Source of the DNA: Panorpa germanica
Taxonomy: Eukaryota; Arthropoda; Insecta; Mecoptera; Panorpidae
NCBI GenBank assembly: GCA_963678705.1
Contig: OY783203.1
Location: 45,818,347 to 45,882,346 of the forward strand
Direction: 5' to 3'
Length of the DNA: 64,000 bases
Shown: piece by piece, positions 38,743 through 63,906 of the stretch
Layout of the letters: each line of letters opens with the position of its first letter
Numbering within the stretch: the first letter of the stretch is position 1
Program-made: the position numbers and the translations under genes
The notes under the pieces: model-generated
Databases searched by the model: none
What the model saw: the letters and a program-made list of their open reading frames with translations, nothing else
What the model was told of the DNA's origin: nothing

Positions 38743-41700
38743 GAAATTTATTCATATAAAACCATGGGGGTCCCATAAATTTTAACTTTATGTTGCATCG
38801 ATTCTAAGGAGAATAAAAAAATGGATTCCACTGGATTTTTTCGCTGAATTTTTCATAAATTTTATTACATTTATTTTATGGTGACATAGTCTAGTTACTT
38901 CGAAGAAAACATCAATTAAAGAAGATAGTTATTAAGATATGAGTACACTAAACACAGTCATAAGTTGCATAAATGTTATTATATAAAAGTTGAGGGACGC
39001 GCAGAGCCCAAATTTTTCTAAAATATTTATTATTAAAATTTTTCTTTTGAAACACAATGAAAATACATCAGCTTTTAAAAATAACATTTATATAGACATA
39101 AATCAAAATCTTTTTTGTAATTTGTAAATTATAATTTAATTACAAAATAGAAAATGTTTGGAAAAGAAAATGTATAGTTTTTAATCCTCCTTAGCTGAAC
39201 CTATAGGTCCTGAAATCAATATATTTAATTAGTCTATAATGCTATTATCATCTTGTTTATTTATAATATATTCTTATGAATATATACTTAATGAATAATG
39301 TTTCATCCTATAGCTCGGACAAGTCTGACATTTTATTCGAATTTTAGTGACCAGTTTTTTTTTATTTTTCTTATAAAAGGCCCTTGTGCAGTGCTGAAGA
39401 TTAGCATAGGTATGGTGAGTAAGATGGCCGGTGCCCGGCCCGGCACTGTAAATATTACGTCAATCTTACTTCCGTGTTTACAGAGTACATACAGCCCAAT
39501 AGTACTCCTGCATAAGATCATCACCATAAAGCTAATCAATTTACCAATTTGAAGTAAAAATATGTGAGATAGCTGGTATTATTCCGGTACGGTACGATAC
39601 TGGACATCCAATTGCCTACTAGTACGTATGCCTACTAGTAGGCTCTAATAGTTATTGAATGCAAGAACTCATATGATACAATAAACATGATATAAATAGA
39701 GCTGTATTCCGAATCATTGATTCATTTGATAAAAATCACATATGCTTATAATATTATTGTATTGAAATAATTGCTGTAATTTAGATTAATTTACCCCCTC
39801 CGTGATATCTAAAAGATATCATTCAATCTTAGGATGTCGCGGAAGGCTTGATAAGACGTTGGTCCAGAGGTCAGAGCGACAGATCTTCCCAGACTCCGGC
39901 GAAGCAGGACTTACATAGTCAGGACTTGTCAGTGAATAATAGATAAATAGTGAATAGTTTTAAGTCAATACAAGAATCAAACTATTATTAATCATATTGT
40001 GATTGAACACGGCCGCGAGCCGCAGCTGATATAGGTTCGTATTTCAGTTATATTTAAAAAATTGTGGTATCTTTAAAAAACTTTTGCTGTTACTTAGTTT
40101 CTGGTTCTCAGAGAAACATTTTTGTAAATTTGTTAGTTCCTTTTATCGCTTTCCGTTCTCGTGAAATAAGAGCAATGGGCATGCGCACAAACGGGTACAC
40201 CATGTATTTTTAAAAAACTAATTCCTGTGATACATAAACATAACACATATAAATCAATAGTTGAATTATTTTTATAGAAAAGGACCAAATTTGTAAGTTT
40301 TATAATCAAATGAAACACACAACGTTAAATAAACTTTATTATCGCATATATATATTACGTTACAATGGCCGAGAATATTGATGCTGAACGCCGGACTGCT
40401 GTGTCTTCGGGTTCGATTCCCGAAGCAGCTCTACGTTTTCTGAGTTTGAATGTTAATTCATTCAATTGGTTATATTCATTGCATATATAATCACAAATGT
40501 AGTAGATAAAGAAAGTAGCTAAACAAAATAAATTAAAACAGTGTAGATTTGTTATGCAATAAACTAGCACAGAACCGCGCTGTATTATCTATGTAGTTTA
40601 TCAACTAGTATAGTTAAACTTAAATGTTTGGTGATTTGAGTCTTTCATATCGGTCAACTAGTGTTGTATATCTTTGAAGAACCCATTGAATATTTTTGAG
40701 AATTTATTGCACAATGCTAGAGATAAAGTTATTCATACGCCATTAAGATATTTATAGTTTTTAATTTGTTTCATCTTTTACATGGGAAAATCCGACCGTC
40801 TGTGATTTTACAACCTCTACTGTATTAGAATTCTTCAGCCTTATTCTACATTTCCATTTTCCTCTGATGCTAGTGCTAGACTTTCTTTAGTATTTACTCG
40901 AATATCAACCAATTTCATAGTAACATATGATTCAGCTAACCCGCTAATTCAATAAAGAATTTTTTATTACTTACTACATTATGTACTAAAACATATATAC
41001 TTAACCAATGTGCCTTAACCTGTATATTCGCATATTGCAGATCTAATATTATACTCGTAGGTAGATGATTACTGTTAAGTATGATTTCTTTGTTTTGGAT
41101 TCGGAAATACTTTTGTAAGCCCGGCCCATTCAAGAATTATAATATAAATATCTTTATTAATTGAAGTAACCAAATAATAATTTTCTAACAAAAATATGTT
41201 TTATTTATGTTAAACAAGTAATTACTTTATGAAAGGCGGTAGTTTAAAAAACACTTTGCTCAGTTGGAAAGCCAGGGGGTGGGAGGGGGGTTATAATTCA
41301 CAGGGCTCTCAAAACGTGTATAAAATATTTTCACCAATTTTGTACTTCAATAACTTCTTTTAACTTCAATTTTTTAGTTATTATTATTTGAATTACATTT
41401 TCTTTATTTTCAAATATTTTAATGAAGGATAAAAAGAAGGTAGAAAGATATTTGTCTCTAAGAACATGGGAATTGAATCTCTTTTATAGAATAGTTAAAA
41501 CTTTAAAAATGTATCTTCTTTCTGAATACGCCGGTATCATTCTATTTATCTACATTTCTTCAATTAGTTTGTGTGACGCACGTGTTACATCTTTTTCCTC
41601 AAAAGTTGTATCAAATAAGCTGCTTCTATTGTTGCTTCTAATTTTTATAAAATCAAATTTCTAATCATATTTTTTCCAAACTAATGCTGACCTAGAAATA

Positions 41701-41894: not shown

Positions 41895-44800
41895 ATGCGC
41901 GCCCTAGCAGGAACATGTGCTATCCTGTTCATGCTGATAGTGTCAGTAACAGCGGTAGCAAGAGTTCGTCGGGTCGGTAGACCAGGTCGTCCTCTATCAG
42001 CAAGGCCACAAGCACAACAACCAGACCCAGGAGATGATTATGACAATGAGTATATCGATGAATACGATGATTTATACACATATGACGGGGAAAGTAAGTA
42101 ACAACAACAAATGATTATTTGAAGAGAAGCATAGATCGAAAGGTTTTTAAATATTTTTAGACGGCAATGGAAATAATGGACAATCAGGGCGAGGACGATC
42201 TTCGGAAGATCCAATTGAAGAAGAAACAGTTACCGAAGTTTTTCGTCAGCAACCTGAGGATGAAGTTCCAACACGAACAGGTAAATTACAGAAATAGAGG
42301 AACAGTTTAACGTTTAGCATGGTTGTCTTTCATTGATTTTTCTCTTAGAACCACCTGTGCAAGTTCAACCAACGTACCCACCTCCACCACCTGGGTCATT
42401 TGTAGGTTAGTTTTATCTGAATGTAATGTGAATATGAACCGGTTATTAGCGGATAATAATACTACTCTATATCAATCTCATAGCTCCCTACTCGTGTTCC
42501 TGGGAAGGACAATGGTACCGTGAAGGAGAGCGTTTTAAACCACAACCCTGTATGGATTGTTCTTGTAGCCAGGGTATCGTAACCTGTCGAGATGATGACT
42601 CTTGTACTAGGCCAGATACAACTAGACCCACTGGACGAGGTTAAACATTTTAACCGTGTTCCTAAAATTCATTTCGAGGCATTTTATAATTATTTTTTGT
42701 AAATTCGTAGTAAATGTAAAAATTGAAGAGCCCCATAGGCCTACGACTCTTCCAACTACACCGAAACCAACTCCGACACCGGCTCCTACACCGACTGCAC
42801 CTGAACCAGGATATGATGCACTTGCAACAGGCGGTGGTGGAACTTCAGCATTAGGACCCAGAGGAGAAGATGGATATCCCGGTGAACGTGGTAGACCTGG
42901 TGATAATGGGTTCCCAGGGTCGCCTGGACAGCCTGGCATTCCTGGTCAACCAGGACCCCCCGGACCAGTTCCTGATGTATTCCAAACTTATTTATATTTT
43001 CAATAATTATAAGATAATATTATTATATAACTAAATTTTATCATTTCAACAATTATATTTTAATTTTGTTTACTTCAGGTATCGCTTTATTATCGTCAAT
43101 TGGAAATGTCACAAGCAAGTGCAGATAAAGGTCCAACGGGTGCAGCTTATGCACCTGATCAATTTCAGTACTTACAAGCACAAGTTGGTCCAATAGGACC
43201 ACGGGGATCACCAGGACCGCAAGGTCCATCTGGTCCACAAGGATTTCAAGGAACTAGGGGAGAATCTGGAGAGCCCGGACCTTCAGGCCCTATAGGACCC
43301 GCTGGTCCTAGAGGACTTTCTGGACTGCCAGGAAAAGATGTGTGTAATATTAATAATCACAATTTCTTAAATATAAATATTGAACAATATATTATTATAG
43401 GGAGAATCTGGAGAGGATGGTGATACCGGACAACCTGGTGCTATTGGGCCAAGTGGACCAAGAGGCTTACCTGGAATGCCTGGTCTTCCCGGTATTAAAG
43501 GTCATAGAGGATTCCCAGGTACTTTCTAAATTTCATAATTGATATTTAAAGGTACCGCATAATCTATTCTACACATATAACGGCATTATATATTCTGCGT
43601 TTAATAGTAAAAGGAAATTGTAGTGCTATGCCTATACTCAGCCGTTGGGGCAAGTGAAGTAATTATAACTTGCATGATGTTTCACATATACAAGCTACTA
43701 AAGTTGTATCAAGTGTATGCCATAATCCTAATTTGCTTGAATATAATCTACACATTACCTAAATGTACATAAATCTATTTATTCTGAACATATAATTTCC
43801 AGGTATTGATGGCAGTAAAGGTGAACAAGGTCCTTCTGGTGAAAAAGGCACAATTGGCAATGTTGGACCAATTGGTCCCGTTGGTCCCATGGTAAGCAAT
43901 TTAATTGTAATTAATTTACTACACGTGTTTCGTATATAATTCTTATAATCTTGTCAAATCTATATTATGAGTCACATATAGTCTAAAAGCAAAAGATTAT
44001 TGGTAAATCATTCTAGTTCATACATACACATTTCAACAGATCAACGAATAATTGAAATAATTGACTTGTGTTATGTAACAGTAACATACCATACATCATC
44101 ACATTATATTTATTGCTTGAATTTATAATAGTATGAAATAGTTTCTTGATTTTATCAACATATGTCCTATATCGTAATTAAAATAACAGATGCAATGACA
44201 CATATCATAATAGCTAGAGGTCGAAGACCGTTGTGTGGCATTTCATGACGTCATGTTTCTGTATGCAGGGCATTAATAATTGTTGTGACACTAAGCATTA
44301 AATTAAATAGATAGCGCGATATATAAATTAATTGGTTATTTGTAAATTTCATTAAAGGGTTCAGCAGGTCCTCGAGGTGAAAGAGGCCGTGAAGGTCCTC
44401 CTGGTCCTCCAGGACTCCGAGGTATCGATGGAATTTCTGGTCCGCCAGGGTCTCCTGTAAGTTAATTATATTTGTTAAGAAAATTAGTAGTAATTATCCT
44501 TTCACAGTTAATATATATTTACTTGTATTGAAATAAAATTTTAGGGAAGCATTGGTAAACCTGGAGCTCCTGGATTTCCCGGTAGTCCAGGACATAAGGG
44601 AGATCAAGGCAGTCAAGGGCCAAAAGGAAGTCAAGGTTTACAAGGACCGCGTGGAGAATCTGGACGACCAGGACAACCAGGTGAAAGTGGTCCTCAAGGA
44701 GCACAAGGTAAAGATGGTTATCCGGGAGAAAAGGGAAGTCCCGGAAGTATTGGACCATCTGGACCACCCGGATTTCCCGGAGCTCGTGGGCCACCTGGAC

Positions 44801-47800
44801 TATCAGGAAGCACTGGAGAACCTGGAGTAAAAGGAATTCCTGTGAGTTAAATGAAATCTAAAACATTATACTAATATATATTATTACCTAGGTAGAAACT
44901 GCGTGCAAATCGTTCCCTCAGTCGTTTGATTATTATTACTTTTTTAATTTTTAATGGGCTAGTAATATGTTATACTTTATTTATTCTTAATTATTATATT
45001 TATAATAATTGTTTCCTAATATTTTACAAACTGAAACTTACATTTAAGGTTAAAATGTAAAATTAGTAAAGTTGAATAGCTTTAAAATAAAGTGTATTAT
45101 GTTGTTGGTTAGGGAGCACCAGGAGAAAGAGGCTTCAAAGGAGAAATTGGCAACAAAGGAGAGGGTGGATTACCTGGACCCAGAGGCTTACCGGGTTCTG
45201 CAGGACCTGAAGGAAAACGAGGAAAAAGAGGTATGCGAGGACCTACTGGACCAAGTGGTCCGTCAGGCGAACGCGGAATACCCGGTGCAAGAGGACTACC
45301 AGGACCGGATGGAGCCCCTGGCCCAAAGGGACAAAACGGAGATCGTGGACCACAAGGACCTCACGGTATTAAAGGATCAGGTGGTGATCCAGGTAGACCC
45401 GGCCCTCCTGGTCTCCAAGGATTACGAGGAATTGCTGGGCGTCCGGGGGCACCTGGAAAACCAGGAAATCCTGGGGAAAGAGGCATTCAAGGGGCTGATG
45501 GTAAACCAGGAGATCAAGGACCACAAGGCTTGCAAGGCCTTCCTGGTCCACTTGGACCTCAAGGAGATAAAGGATTCCCTGTATGTTGACAAGAATATAT
45601 TATTTGATATTCATTACATTATTTATAATATTACATCAATATTATTGTGTAAATAGGGTGAGTCTGGAAAAGACGGAGAATCTGGCCCACCAGGAACAAC
45701 TGGACCTCGTGGAGATCCTGGCAAAGATGGCGCTCCAGGAATACAAGGACCTCCGGGTCCATCAGGTTCCGATGGTGAAAGAGGTCCTCCTGGCCCATCT
45801 GGTCCAAGGGGATTCCAAGGGTTACCTGGAGCATCCGGAAATCCTGGATCACCTGGAAAAGATGGTGAATCAGGAGCACAAGGACCACCAGGCCAACCTG
45901 GACCATCCGGAAATCGTGGTGAAAGAGGATTCCCTGGTGAACGTGGACCTATTGGTCAACCGGGAGCTACTGGCAATCGCGGAGAACCGGGATCTCAGGG
46001 TTCTGATGGGCCATCGGTACATATTACAAATATTCATAAATATTTAAAATTAAATTATTTGAATTTTCATAAGAAATATAATTTATTAGGGTCCACCAGG
46101 ATTGAAGGGAGACAAAGGTCATATGGGACCCGCAGGATTAGTAGGTCTTCCTGGCTTGAGAGGACTGAATGGGCTTCCTGGAGATAAAGGAGAAAGAGGA
46201 TCTTTCGGACCAGTAGGCCCTGAGGGACCACCTGGAAGACAAGGTGAACGTGGTCCTCAAGGACAGGTTGGACCTCCTGGTCCACCTGGAGAGCCTGCTG
46301 AACGTGGAGATACTGGTCCACCAGGACCTCCCGGAGAATCTGGTGCTCCTGGAGGCCCAGGAGAGCGTGGCCCCGTAGGCCCACAGGGATTACAAGGTTT
46401 CCCAGGACCTCAAGGTTTATCAGGGTTACCTGGCAGTAAAGGTGAACGTGGAATAATGGGAATAAAGGGTGATCAAGGTAACTCTGGACCTGTTGGAAAT
46501 CCTGGAGAGTCTGGACCACCAGGTTTAGTTGGTTTAACTGGAGCTAAAGGGGCTAGAGGAGAACCAGGTTCTCGTGGAGATATTGGTATTATGGGACCCC
46601 CTGGTCGGCCTGGAGAGCCCGGCTTAGCTGTAAGTATTATCACCTGTAATAATACAATGTTAATGCTTGTAATGAAACTGAACAATCTCAAGAAATTTGT
46701 TTGTCTGATAGAGTTAATATTAAAATAGTATTTCAAAAATTATTTAGTAAAGTTAGTTTTGTGAATCAGGAGTTCTGAATTTATTATAGTAATTAATAAT
46801 GAATTTTGTTGATCATTTTGAGATACGCAAAATTTCATTGGGAGTGGCAGGGGTATGTTTTACTTAAACGCCGTTCAAAGCAATGGAGTATATGAAACAT
46901 AAAAATCTATGATTGCCATTTGATTATAGTAATAGCTGCCTTTTCAAAATCTAAAACAAAAACCGTGATAACATTATGGGCTAAGTAATTATCTTAAGTA
47001 TTGTTTTAAACATAATGCATTGGACCTCAAGCGTTTTCTACTTTCATCTGAAACTTAATTTTTTTTTTATTCATAATGATTTCACAGTCACAGAGTGTTT
47101 ACGAACATTTAAATATTTTAGGGTCAACCTGGAAACGTTGGTCCTCCTGGTCCATCTGGTCTTCCAGGAATTAAAGGATCATCTGGAGATACTGGCCGCC
47201 CTGGTAATGCTGGTCCACAAGGATTACCTGGAAACCAAGGAATAGAAGGACCTAAAGGTGACACAGGAAGCGAAGGGCCGTCAGGACCGGCAGGACCATC
47301 TGGACCTCAAGGACCGGCAGGAGACCGTGGACTTCCAGGATTACCAGGACCATCTGGACCTACTGGTGCTAGGGGAATAAGAGGAGCATCTGTAAGTAGA
47401 AAAACATATAATGATATCTCTCAATGCTTTAAGCAATTTTTATTGCATGTGTAATTTGATTATTATTTATATTTCTATACATATGTAAAATAATTAAGGG
47501 TGAAACTGGGCCACCTGGAAAACCAGGAAGTGAAGGACCTGCTGGTCCTATTGGAGTAGCCGGGCCACCGGGCTCCCCTGGTCCATTAGGAGAACAAGGT
47601 CCTGAAGGACCATCAGGAAAACCAGGACCTCATGGTATATCTGGTCGTCCTGGAGATAAGGGTCCCGCAGGTCCTGCAGGAAGTCCAGGAAATTCAGGAG
47701 CCCCCGGTTTGCCAGTAAGCAATTTAATTATAATATACTCTACAACATAAGCGCAGGTAAATAAATAATATTATTATTTCTTAATTAGGGACCACAGGGT

Positions 47801-49891
47801 CCCAGTGGACCTCCTGGCGGACCAGGAGAAAGAGGACAACGAGGAGAGACTGGACCGCAAGGAGTTGAAGGCCAATCAGGTCCTCGAGGTAAATCGGGTC
47901 CAGCTGGAGCAGAGGGTGTCAAGGTTAGAATTATTTTTAAATCTGATATGATTTTTTTATTACAAATATTAACATTTTATAATATATTCCTTTTAGGGAG
48001 AACGTGGAGAAGGTGGCCCTAAAGGAGCTAAAGGTCATCGTGGTCTTATTGGTTTACAAGGATTACCTGGACAACAAGGTCTTACGGGTGAAAAGGGTAT
48101 GACTGGAATGGCAGGACTTCCAGGTAAAGATGGAGAACCTGGAACCCGAGGTCCTCCTGGACGTGACGGTAATTCTGGACCTCAGGGTATTTCTGGTCCA
48201 CCTGGATTACGTGGATCATCAGGAGAAGAGGGTCGACATGGTCAACCAGGTAATCCAGGTCCACCTGGGCCTCCGGGACCACCTGGAGAACCATTAGGAT
48301 ATGATGCTGCTGCATTAGCTTCTCTTCTTGGACAAGGAATTAATAATCAAAAGGGGCCAGATCCTATGGGTGATGAACCAGTTAGACTATTTGGAAAAGA
48401 TATATCAGAAGAAGAACGAAGGGAACTTGTACTTAAAGCTTATGAGCAGTTGAAGAGTTCATTTGAACGGTTCCGTAAACCAGATGGACAGAAATCATCT
48501 CCTGGAAAAACCTGTAGAGATATTGCTGTTGCACACCCTGAATCAAAAAGCGGTAAGATTATTCGGTAATATAAAAGGATTTTTTTTAATATTTAAAACT
48601 GTCGATTTATTTATTACTCAGGTGAGTACTGGATCGACCCTAATGAGGGGGATGTTCGTGATGCTATCCTGGTACATTGTGACATGGAAACCAGGGCAAC
48701 ATGTCTCCTTGCTCGACCTGAGAAATCACCAGAAATTAATTACTCCGGAGACGATCAAGAAGTCTGGTTGGGTGAAGTTACCGATGGCATGAAGGTAAAT
48801 AATACTTCATATTTAATATACATAGTGAATTTGAAAAAATCGTGAAGTGAAAAATAATAATCACATTTTATAATTTTCATTCATTTAAGTCATCTTCTAT
48901 TTTTTTTATTTAATTTATTTAACGTCGGCCTATTTCCGATGCTGAGTCCTATCACCGACGACCTCCTACAATGTTGGCAGTATTTATGGTGTCGTGGCCT
49001 CATATATGTGGGCTACACCACTGCCTTTATATTGTACGATTATGTTTGACCATAATCAATATAAGTTCATAATAACCAAACCCAGAGAATATATATCTGG
49101 TCCGGGGATCGAACCCGAAGACACAGCAGTCGGCGTCAAGCATCAATGCTCTCGCCCACTGTGTCGTCCAGTCATCTTCTAATTACATCATTTCTAGCAC
49201 AGTTTTTACACAAGTACAATGTTAATTATGATAATAACGGAGTGTATCTCAAATTATTAAATGAACTACCTATGACGTTCAATTCATTAATTTCTATTTA
49301 TTATTTTTCTACAAATCAATTTTTTCAAAATAATATATATTTTTTTTTAATGGAAAACAATAACGTTAGTTTCGATAATGAAAACTATACAAACAATTAT
49401 AAACAATTATGGGGAACAACAATCAAATATATTGCTTTTCAGATTACTTACAAGGCCGACAGCAACCAAATTGGCTTCCTACAATTACTCTCAGCAAAGG
49501 CATCACAAAACATCACTTATCATTGCAAAAATTCAGTAGCTTATTATGACAATGAAAAGAATACGTACAGAAAAGGAGTGAAACTTCTGGCGTGGAATGA
49601 TGCCGAATTAACTCCACGAGGAAATCACAGATTCAGATACGAAGCAATTGAAGACGAATGCAAGGTATTGATTTGAAAACACACAAAATAAAAATGACAG
49701 TAACATTAAGCAGTCGGTGACTAATTTTTTTAAATTAATTACAGTATAAGAAAAATACTTGGGCTCGCACCGTTCTAACCTACTCCACAGACAAAGCAGC
49801 TCGACTGCCAATTTTAGACATCGCCTCCAGAGATATTGGTGCACCAGGCCAAGCTTTCTGGGTGGAAATAGGACCAGCGTGTTTTACATAG
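41895..49891 (+). CDS. Fibrillar procollagen alpha chain (COLFI type), complete
   Basis: Secreted matrix protein of 1582 residues in 20 exons: 41895-42093, 42161-42280, 42349-42405, 42484-42639, 42711-42976, 43079-43339, 43401-43518, 43803-43891, 44358-44456, 44545-44841, 45113-45580, 45657-46016, 46090-46629, 47122-47391, 47499-47714, 47789-47923, 47997-48552, 48622-48794, 49443-49664, 49745-49891. All phases agree. Order: signal peptide ([17 protein letters not shown]), acidic stretch, short VWC domain (about 126-177, [19 protein letters not shown]), Pro/Thr linker, 13-triplet minor helix, telopeptide-like linker with APDQ (possible N-proteinase site), major helix 303-1316, and C-propeptide with MGDEP (possible BMP1-type site) and [15 protein letters not shown]. 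Odd points: six instead of eight propeptide cysteines, one Gly-to-Ala break (residue about 900), and no TSPN domain. A SINE sits in the intron after 48794. Confidence 0.96.
48915..49172 (-). repeat. SINE copy in a collagen intron
   Basis: About 258 bases, the longest copy seen. It shares GATGCTGAGTCCTATCACCG and GTGTCGTGGCCTCATATATG with 35605-35775, and carries GGGGATCGAACCCGAAGACA (box B on the minus strand near 49105-49116) and the head complement CCCACTGTGTCGTC. It sits in the 648-base intron between collagen exons 48622-48794 and 49443-49664. Confidence 0.8.
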
Positions 49892-62600: not shown

Positions 62601-63906
62601 TAATTTACATTGATCAGGCGCTGAAACTAAATAAACACGATAAATAGAAACAAAAAACACGATAATAGAAAAAAAAAATGTGGCCGAAAAGACACAACAC
62701 AACGATTAAATGACTTTCAGCACATAAAGATAGTCAAAATCAGGAGCTACACAGTACCTCCATATTTCGGGGCCCATTTAATACTGGAATTCAGATTAGG
62801 AAGACCAAAAGTTTTGCCGTTGAAATCGGCACACTGCTCTTCTCTGAAATGGAATAATTCAGTATATATTTTTGCTGAAAACAGTAAACAACATCTAGAA
62901 ATATTTGATTAGTAATACCTGAAATCACTTGTTTCTGGTGAACATTCTTCCGTGGCGCAGGAACGATATTTGGCACGATCGCCTTTGCAGTATCCACCAC
63001 CGTTAGCTGGGGCGGGATTGTCACATTCGCGGATAGAAGTCTTAATACCACCACCACAAGTCCGACTGCACGGTCCCCAGCTGCCATAAAAAAGCAAAGC
63101 GAGTTTCAATAATTGTACGACGTGTAGAAAAGTTAGTTATACTATCACTGTCACTGAAAAACATTTTTCCTTCCTAATGTAGTAAGCCTACCACGAAGGC
63201 GCAGTGGCTAAACTGCTGTGTCCTCGGGTTTGATTTCCGGAACACTGTTTTATTTTCTGATTTTGATTGTTGTCACGTTTAGATCATATGTTAAACATAA
63301 TTATAAACATATAAGCCAGCGGTGGAGTAATATTTAATGCGATTTTTTCAACTTTTCTCAGTTTAAAAAAGCGGTAACCGTAACTCTCGTTTATGGTTAC
63401 GTTCGTCAAAAGATAGATTCCAATATTAAGATGAAAAGCTGACCTGTCATCAATTGTGGGAGCAATAGGACACTAAAACCGAGTAATCCCATTAAAAGTG
63501 GACAATTTGGTCACCCTAAGAAAACCGGTCTGAGAAATACTTCAAAAAGTGTCTTGAATTGAAAACGTTAAATGAAAACATTGCTTATCTTTTATCAAGA
63601 CTTTACAGGCAATAAATAGTAAGCGACCGACAGCCGCGTATTGCTTAGAAACCTTAAAAATAAATTTAGACTTACCCTTGCCAAGGCCCCCATTCCCCAT
63701 TTGTAGGTATCAAAGCGCTTCTGTTGACACTGACACACTCTCCTTTGTGACACCAGCTTTTTTCGTGAGGGTTACCCTTGTGTCTGTAGCAGGCTGTTCC
63801 ATCTGCCCAAGGCATGTGCTGTGTGCGGCACCCACTGGGGCCATCGGGATGTTGTCCTTGGCGCCGCATATCGCGCTGATCTTCTGGAGTTATGCACCAC
63901 AGTCTA
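53605..63906 (-). CDS. ADAMTS metalloprotease of GON-1/ADAMTS9/20 type, C-terminal part
   Basis: Secreted matrix protease; the catalytic domain lies beyond the right edge. Minus-strand exons: 63906-63676, 63080-62919, 62843-62758, 62626-62447, 60933-60829, 60446-60384, 59807-59632, 59559-59417, 59225-59106, 58952-58733, 58668-58501, 58430-58281, 58188-58066, 57729-57544, 57476-57315, 57242-57063, 56632-56562, 56492-56240, 54765-54615, 54547-54370, 54134-54061, 53987-53794, 53694-53605; about 1155 residues, all phases matching. Order: disintegrin-like end ([16 protein letters not shown]), central TSP1 ([11 protein letters not shown]), cysteine-rich region ([13 protein letters not shown]), spacer, nine TSP1 repeats, then a GON domain ([42 protein letters not shown]), ending [18 protein letters not shown]. 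The terminal GON domain is diagnostic for this subgroup, linked to matrix remodelling and cell migration. Drosophila AdamTS-A is the likely fly counterpart. Confidence 0.95.
56810..56975 (-). repeat. Decayed dispersed repeat in an ADAMTS intron
   Basis: On the minus strand this GC-richer block reads [20 protein letters not shown], then [20 protein letters not shown]. It shares about 40 bases with the block at 32510-32760. The second part resembles the start of a LINE reverse transcriptase (FTxEEV), where a KAPGPDG-like motif would follow; here it is degraded. It is not part of the ADAMTS coding sequence. Confidence 0.5.
60228..60365 (-). repeat. Diverged SINE copy in an ADAMTS intron
   Basis: Read on the minus strand, AACACAATGAGCGGAGCGTT is followed by TGTTGTGTTTCCGGGCTCGA, matching the head and box B of the SINE family with several changes. 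Confidence 0.6.
61305..61556. mobile_element. MITE, 252 bp, in an ADAMTS intron
   Basis: Inverted ends: CCCAGTAAACATTTTGGAGT on the left, and CCCAGTAAACATTTGGTGAA read from the right. TTA occurs beside both ends (61301-61303 and 61557-61559), separated from the left end by one base. Its interior gives a 92-codon open reading frame that I regard as accidental. It lies in the 1.5-kb intron between exons 62626-62447 and 60933-60829. Confidence 0.75.
63188..63262 (+). repeat. SINE copy in an ADAMTS intron
   Basis: The stretch CCACGAAGGCGCAGTGGCTA, then AACTGCTGTGTCCTCGGGTT and TGATTTCCGGAA matches the head and box B of the family. It is shorter than the other copies, with the middle of the head (GCATTGATGC) deleted. 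Confidence 0.65.

Follow-up and report, generated by a model that had tools for sequence, protein, structure and literature searches.

Do three fibrillar collagen chains need a disulfide bond between them, or can their C-propeptides hold a trimer together without one? The question is raised by a procollagen gene in a stretch of 64,000 nucleotides of Panorpa germanica DNA (contig OY783203.1, positions 45,818,347 to 45,882,346 of the forward strand), hereafter called the window. A preliminary description had proposed that the C-propeptide of this chain lacks both cysteines of the interchain bond.

The procollagen gene and its C-propeptide cysteines

Exons were picked by eye and spliced by hand. 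All junctions have GT/AG ends, and the exons join into one open frame of 1582 codons (Table 1). The chain starts with a signal-like segment (by eye), and its N-propeptide contains a VWC-like module matched by Pfam VWC at 25.4 bits, below the cut-off of 27.6, over profile positions 1-40 of 57. The module at 42484-42639 appears truncated. A minor helix of 13 triplets also belongs to the N-propeptide. The main helix runs over residues 303-1316 (338 triplets, 1014 residues) with a single Gly-to-Ala change, which lies at triplet 200 in the context GEP-AER-GDT (GCT, 46297-46299), all remaining triplets being perfect. This GCT is one base away from GGT, and a variant or a base error is possible; glycine substitutions in the helix of human type I collagen cause disease. 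KGHR motifs occur at helix triplets 28 and 309, corresponding to helix residues 84 and 927, and are 843 residues apart, a distance that matches the human lysines 87 and 930, which we take to be the cross-linking pair. We likewise assume a cross-link role for the lysine of the C-telopeptide, and the G/DEP motif is the likely cleavage point of the C-proteinase (BMP-1/tolloid), matching the human site. The COLFI domain is complete (Pfam PF01410, 255.2 bits, positions 5-233 of 233), and a QNIT sequon is present at Cys6. With this domain, a helix of about 1000 residues and the six cysteines of the intrachain bonds, the chain is a fibrillar procollagen.

Table 1. Coordinates of the procollagen gene and its features in the window
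Feature	Position	Strand	Details or basis
Fibrillar procollagen gene	41895..49891	+	20 exons, 1582 aa; open throughout from ATG to TAG
VWC-like module exon, N-propeptide	42484..42639	+	Probable A-clade type, short, 6 Cys; Pfam VWC
N-telopeptide and main triple helix exons	43079..48293	+	Cys-free
C-telopeptide Lys, candidate cross-link site	48351..48353	+	Sequence
Asp of G/DEP motif, C-propeptide start	48372..48374	+	Sequence
Stalk region, residues 7-28 in human numbering	48411..48476	+	Numbered from Cys41; coiled coil predicted solely from homology
Lys at chloride-site residue 39 (human Arg)	48507..48509	+	Alignment
Six kept cysteines	48513..49882	+	First codon bases: C1 48513, C4 48678, C5 48702, C6 49524, C7 49659, C8 49880
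Ala1396 (GCA) at Cys2 site, residue 47	48531..48533	+	Direct read and alignment
Calcium loop DPNEGDVRD; Asp59, Asn61, Asp67 kept	48636..48662	+	Alignment
Glu (GAG) replacing Gln62 of central chloride site	48645..48647	+	Alignment
Asp1413 (GAT) at Cys3 site, residue 64	48651..48653	+	Direct read and alignment

Elsewhere in the window, copies of a repeat that carries a GGTTCGATTCC-like box were seen at 40396-40422, 49103-49129 (minus strand) and 63213-63239, giving 3 matches at up to 3 mismatches against 0 expected. One copy lies inside the collagen gene, in the intron 48795-49442. We take the GGTTCGATTCC-like box to be a tRNA-type B box, and the element is perhaps a SINE. An open frame at 21484-21936 matches a protein kinase domain (Pkinase, 65.8 bits).

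The solved human COL3A1 (4ae2) and COL1A1 (5k31) C-propeptides served as reference chains. In human chains the intrachain bonds join residues 41-73, 81-244 and 152-197, and the interchain bond joins 47-64 (PMC5353611; this and the other papers are cited from the portions of their text available). The aligned Panorpa C-propeptide has cysteine at residues 41, 73, 81, 152, 197 and 244, alanine at 47 and aspartate at 64. Direct reading of the codons, together with the human alignment, confirmed this replacement of Cys2 and Cys3 with retention of the other six, as the preliminary description had stated. Partners for the intrachain pairs C1-C4, C5-C8 and C6-C7 are all aligned, the bonds themselves being read from sequence alone. 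The Cys2 and Cys3 sites are in two exons separated by a 69-base intron (48553-48621) with GT/AG ends; a frame reading through this intron was ruled out by in-frame stops.

We also looked for cysteines at shifted positions that could still pair between chains, which would have contradicted the earlier proposal. Since the stretch from Cys1 to Cys4 is gap-free in all four rows of the alignment, there is no shifted register. Of the chain's 13 cysteines, the VWC-like module and the C-propeptide hold six each and the signal region the remaining one, and the spliced chain has none between the N-propeptide and Cys1; helix and telopeptides therefore provide no shifted cysteine for interchain pairing in that region, and there is no stand-in within the C-propeptide. 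With both partners gone and the remaining C-propeptide cysteines aligned to the six intrachain positions, the proposed absence of the Cys47-Cys64 link is upheld: on this alignment, the interchain disulfide cannot form in this chain. The cysteine code asks for both Cys2 and Cys3 in a covalently locked homotrimer, and the chain has neither. By simple arithmetic, a random loss of two of eight cysteines would strike exactly the bonded pair with a chance of 1 in 28.

The second COLFI gene of the genome

The genome (464 Mb in 249 contigs) yielded eight COLFI profile matches, four in the window gene and four in a single gene on contig C9. A protein search returned 10 matches, of which six fall in these two COLFI genes and four are weak (E 0.02 to 0.97). 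Three of the weak matches were inspected and resemble a transposon-type family B DNA polymerase, not a third fibrillar gene; the corresponding open frames lie at L012 283-957, L013 419-1036 and L014 3-1157, and we take their YYDTDS-like motif to be the one found in the family B DNA polymerase that large DNA transposons encode. The searches worked exon by exon, which may have let a strongly divergent third gene escape, and the weak match on contig C6 (E 0.4) lies outside the inspected set.

The gene on contig C9 reads TCKDLYYGHPQF and DPNLGMGDDA, with glycine at residue 47, methionine at residue 64 and the six other cysteines as in the window gene. Among solved structures, its closest relative is COL1A1 (E 8e-50). 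The N-propeptide, joined from two pieces, gives a weak match to the COL9A1 structure in the PDB (E 1.3e-4), which would fit a TSPN domain and hence a chain of B type; Pfam assigned no family to the single exon, and laminin G to the joined pieces below the cut-off only. The contig C9 gene is thus a probable B-type chain, and the same bonded pair of cysteines is missing from both it and the window chain, which is probably of A type. Two parallel losses or an old absence may account for this.

No partner chain carrying both Cys2 and Cys3 was present among the COLFI genes found by the exon-wise search. Because neither gene has both residues, rescue by a two-cysteine partner chain does not appear to be available, and a heterotrimer of the kind described by the cysteine code would have no suitable partner among the genes found.

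Calcium loop, chloride site and trimer interface

Asp59, Asn61 and Asp67 are conserved in both the window chain and its contig C9 paralogue. We take residue 59 to be the equivalent of Asp1277, and Asn61 is presumably a calcium ligand as well. Residue 64 contributes only a main-chain oxygen to the calcium site, so the side chain of Asp64 may not matter for calcium binding. Asp67 (PMC5353611) and Asp1277 (PMC6181919) are both reported calcium ligands. The ligands that a calcium-dependent C-propeptide trimer would use at its base therefore appear to be in place. The base of the trimer (residues 30-76, holding the calcium site) is identical to COL1A1 at 26 of 47 residues, compared with 66 of 169 in the petals, and by this measure the base is the better conserved part. 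In contrast, little of the stalk is conserved where it aligns: 3 of 12 residues are identical in COL1A1 and 1 of 12 in COL3A1, which would argue against a non-covalent trimer. The human stalk comprises residues 8-29 (PMC5353611).

The central chloride site has changed. In human chains a chloride ion sits centrally in the trimer, bound by Arg39 and Gln62 (PMC5353611); the contig C9 paralogue has Arg39 and Leu62, and both of these residues are replaced in the window chain (Table 1), so the trimer interface may differ. In addition, the two Panorpa chains share a gap of 6-7 residues covering residue 129 (position by count), which belongs to the vertebrate chain-recognition sequence (PMC5353611). 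This gap agrees with the reported absence of most of the recognition sequence in invertebrates (PMC2852846). At residue 35 (48495-48497), where Lys35 of human COL3A1 binds procollagen C-proteinase enhancer (PMC6372009), the window gene encodes serine and the paralogue glutamate. A single-sequence monomer model was too poor for use (mean pLDDT 37.1).

Assembly without the interchain disulfide

We consider it likely that the gene encodes a functional fibrillar procollagen whose N-propeptide is probably of the A-clade type, and we infer that its C-propeptide trimerises without interchain disulfides. Calcium bound at every interface between chains, together with the coiled-coil stalk, would hold three chains in register non-covalently, after which the triple helix would zip up and lysyl cross-links, made outside the cell, would later add covalent permanence. 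Assembly would thus halt at what is the first step in human chains, the non-covalent calcium trimer, with disulfide locking omitted. Since helix and lysyl cross-links would supply the permanence, we propose that the vertebrate disulfide lock is dispensable here.

A report on human chains supports this scheme. The C-propeptide of human alpha2(I), which is without Cys2, forms non-covalent trimers driven by calcium, and in chains with both cysteines it is afterwards that the disulfide makes the trimers permanent (PMC6181919). Other reports speak against it. Changing Cys2 or Cys3 in human chains abolishes disulfide-linked homotrimers, every human chain that forms homotrimers has both cysteines, and wild-type human C-propeptides short of one cysteine run as monomers on gels (PMC6181919). 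The alpha2(I) C-propeptide alone is said to be unable to form homotrimers, which the authors of the COL1A1 structure attribute to its one missing cysteine (PMC5353611).

A different account of the loss would be that the chain always pairs with the contig C9 chain in a non-covalent mixture of A and B types and has lost its cysteines as a member of an obligate heterotrimer. The six-cysteine pattern and the gap at recognition residue 129 are common to both chains, and the 2010 review allows for indiscriminate heterotrimers in invertebrates (PMC2852846). However, in a disulfide-linked heterotrimer one or more of the chains must carry both cysteines (PMC6181919), and the searches found no such chain. 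The two N-propeptides differ in type, and A-clade chains had already diverged from B/C-clade chains when sponges branched off from other animals (PMC2852846). Overall we regard obligate pairing as rather unlikely.

Two further explanations are less likely still. An error of assembly or gene model, or a polymorphism, behind which the true sequence has its cysteines, might be entertained because the source is a single assembly and the Gly-to-Ala change in the helix could hint at base errors. Yet the nearest cysteine codon is three changes away from GCA and two from GAT, and a read error is unlikely given the five base changes needed; the frame is intact across 1582 codons and the same loss recurs in the gene on contig C9, which together leave an error barely conceivable. 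A decaying gene, in which cysteine loss reflects relaxed constraint, is slightly less far-fetched and still very improbable. It could draw on the one glycine break among 338 triplets and the short VWC module, but the full open frame and the 1014-residue helix speak against it, as do the retained cysteines, calcium ligands, sequon and cross-link motifs and the restriction of the loss to one bonded pair.

We therefore return to the functional chain with a non-covalently assembled C-propeptide trimer. A more far-reaching version, which we offer tentatively and think improbable as it stands, is that the whole fibrillar system of the animal does without interchain disulfides and that a ring of Lys39-Glu62 salt bridges replaces the chloride in the window chain, giving a calcium-only trimer. 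Chloride-independent assembly of collagen IV has been reported in Ecdysozoa, and a chloride-free Lys-Glu trimer, if real, would parallel it (PMC10694668).

The double loss is less rare than the preliminary description implied. The double loss as such is already known, since both the 2010 review (PMC2852846) and a 2022 paper on lamprey and hagfish (PMC8887668) report it. What appears to be new is that the sole other COLFI gene found, probably B-type, is without the same two cysteines. In the open-licence literature, among the matches listed, we saw neither a genome in which all fibrillar chains found are without both cysteines nor a remark on the chloride site of invertebrate fibrillar chains, which is weak evidence in both cases. 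Judged by title and the start of the abstract, none of the matches listed was an arthropod paper on the Cys2 and Cys3 residues, and the available portions of PMC9966395 and PMC7551324 make no mention of these cysteines. A pattern scan for relatives gave 2 and 61 matches in viral contigs and 34 in genome contigs, with no relative in any of them. The pair of genes also raises the question of how two unlike chains would avoid mixing with neither a disulfide nor the vertebrate recognition sequence.

Among known systems, fibrillar collagens generally may be without Cys2, without Cys3 or without the two together, and some invertebrate fibrillar chains, likened here by description, are without both (PMC2852846). 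The same review states that chains can associate in semi-intact cells without the help of Cys2 (PMC2852846). In the COLF1 modules of Monosiga both can also be absent, but unlike in the Panorpa chain Cys5 and Cys8 are missing too (PMC2852846). Hydra Hcol1 has been reported as a homotrimer (PMC9966395). Lamprey colA2 and hagfish colA4 are listed as changed at residues two and three, and the six remaining cysteines are retained in every lamprey and hagfish gene, as in the Panorpa chain; however, several further genes of these jawless vertebrates, also likened by description, are not listed as changed (PMC8887668). Human pro-alpha2(I) and some type V chains resemble the Panorpa chain in missing an interchain cysteine, but in them the second of the pair is retained, and they assemble with a chain that has both (PMC6181919). 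The C-propeptides of human COL3A1 and COL1A1 are homologous along the full length of the COLFI domain (phmmer E 5.8e-60 and 9.7e-57) and share the six intrachain cysteines and the calcium ligands, whereas their Cys47, Cys64, Gln62, Arg39 and recognition-stretch residues are missing from the Panorpa chain. The human cysteine code makes disulfide locking a requirement for stable fibrillar trimers; an animal whose fibrillar chains, as far as found, are all incapable of that lock would offer a natural test of whether calcium, stalk and helix are enough.
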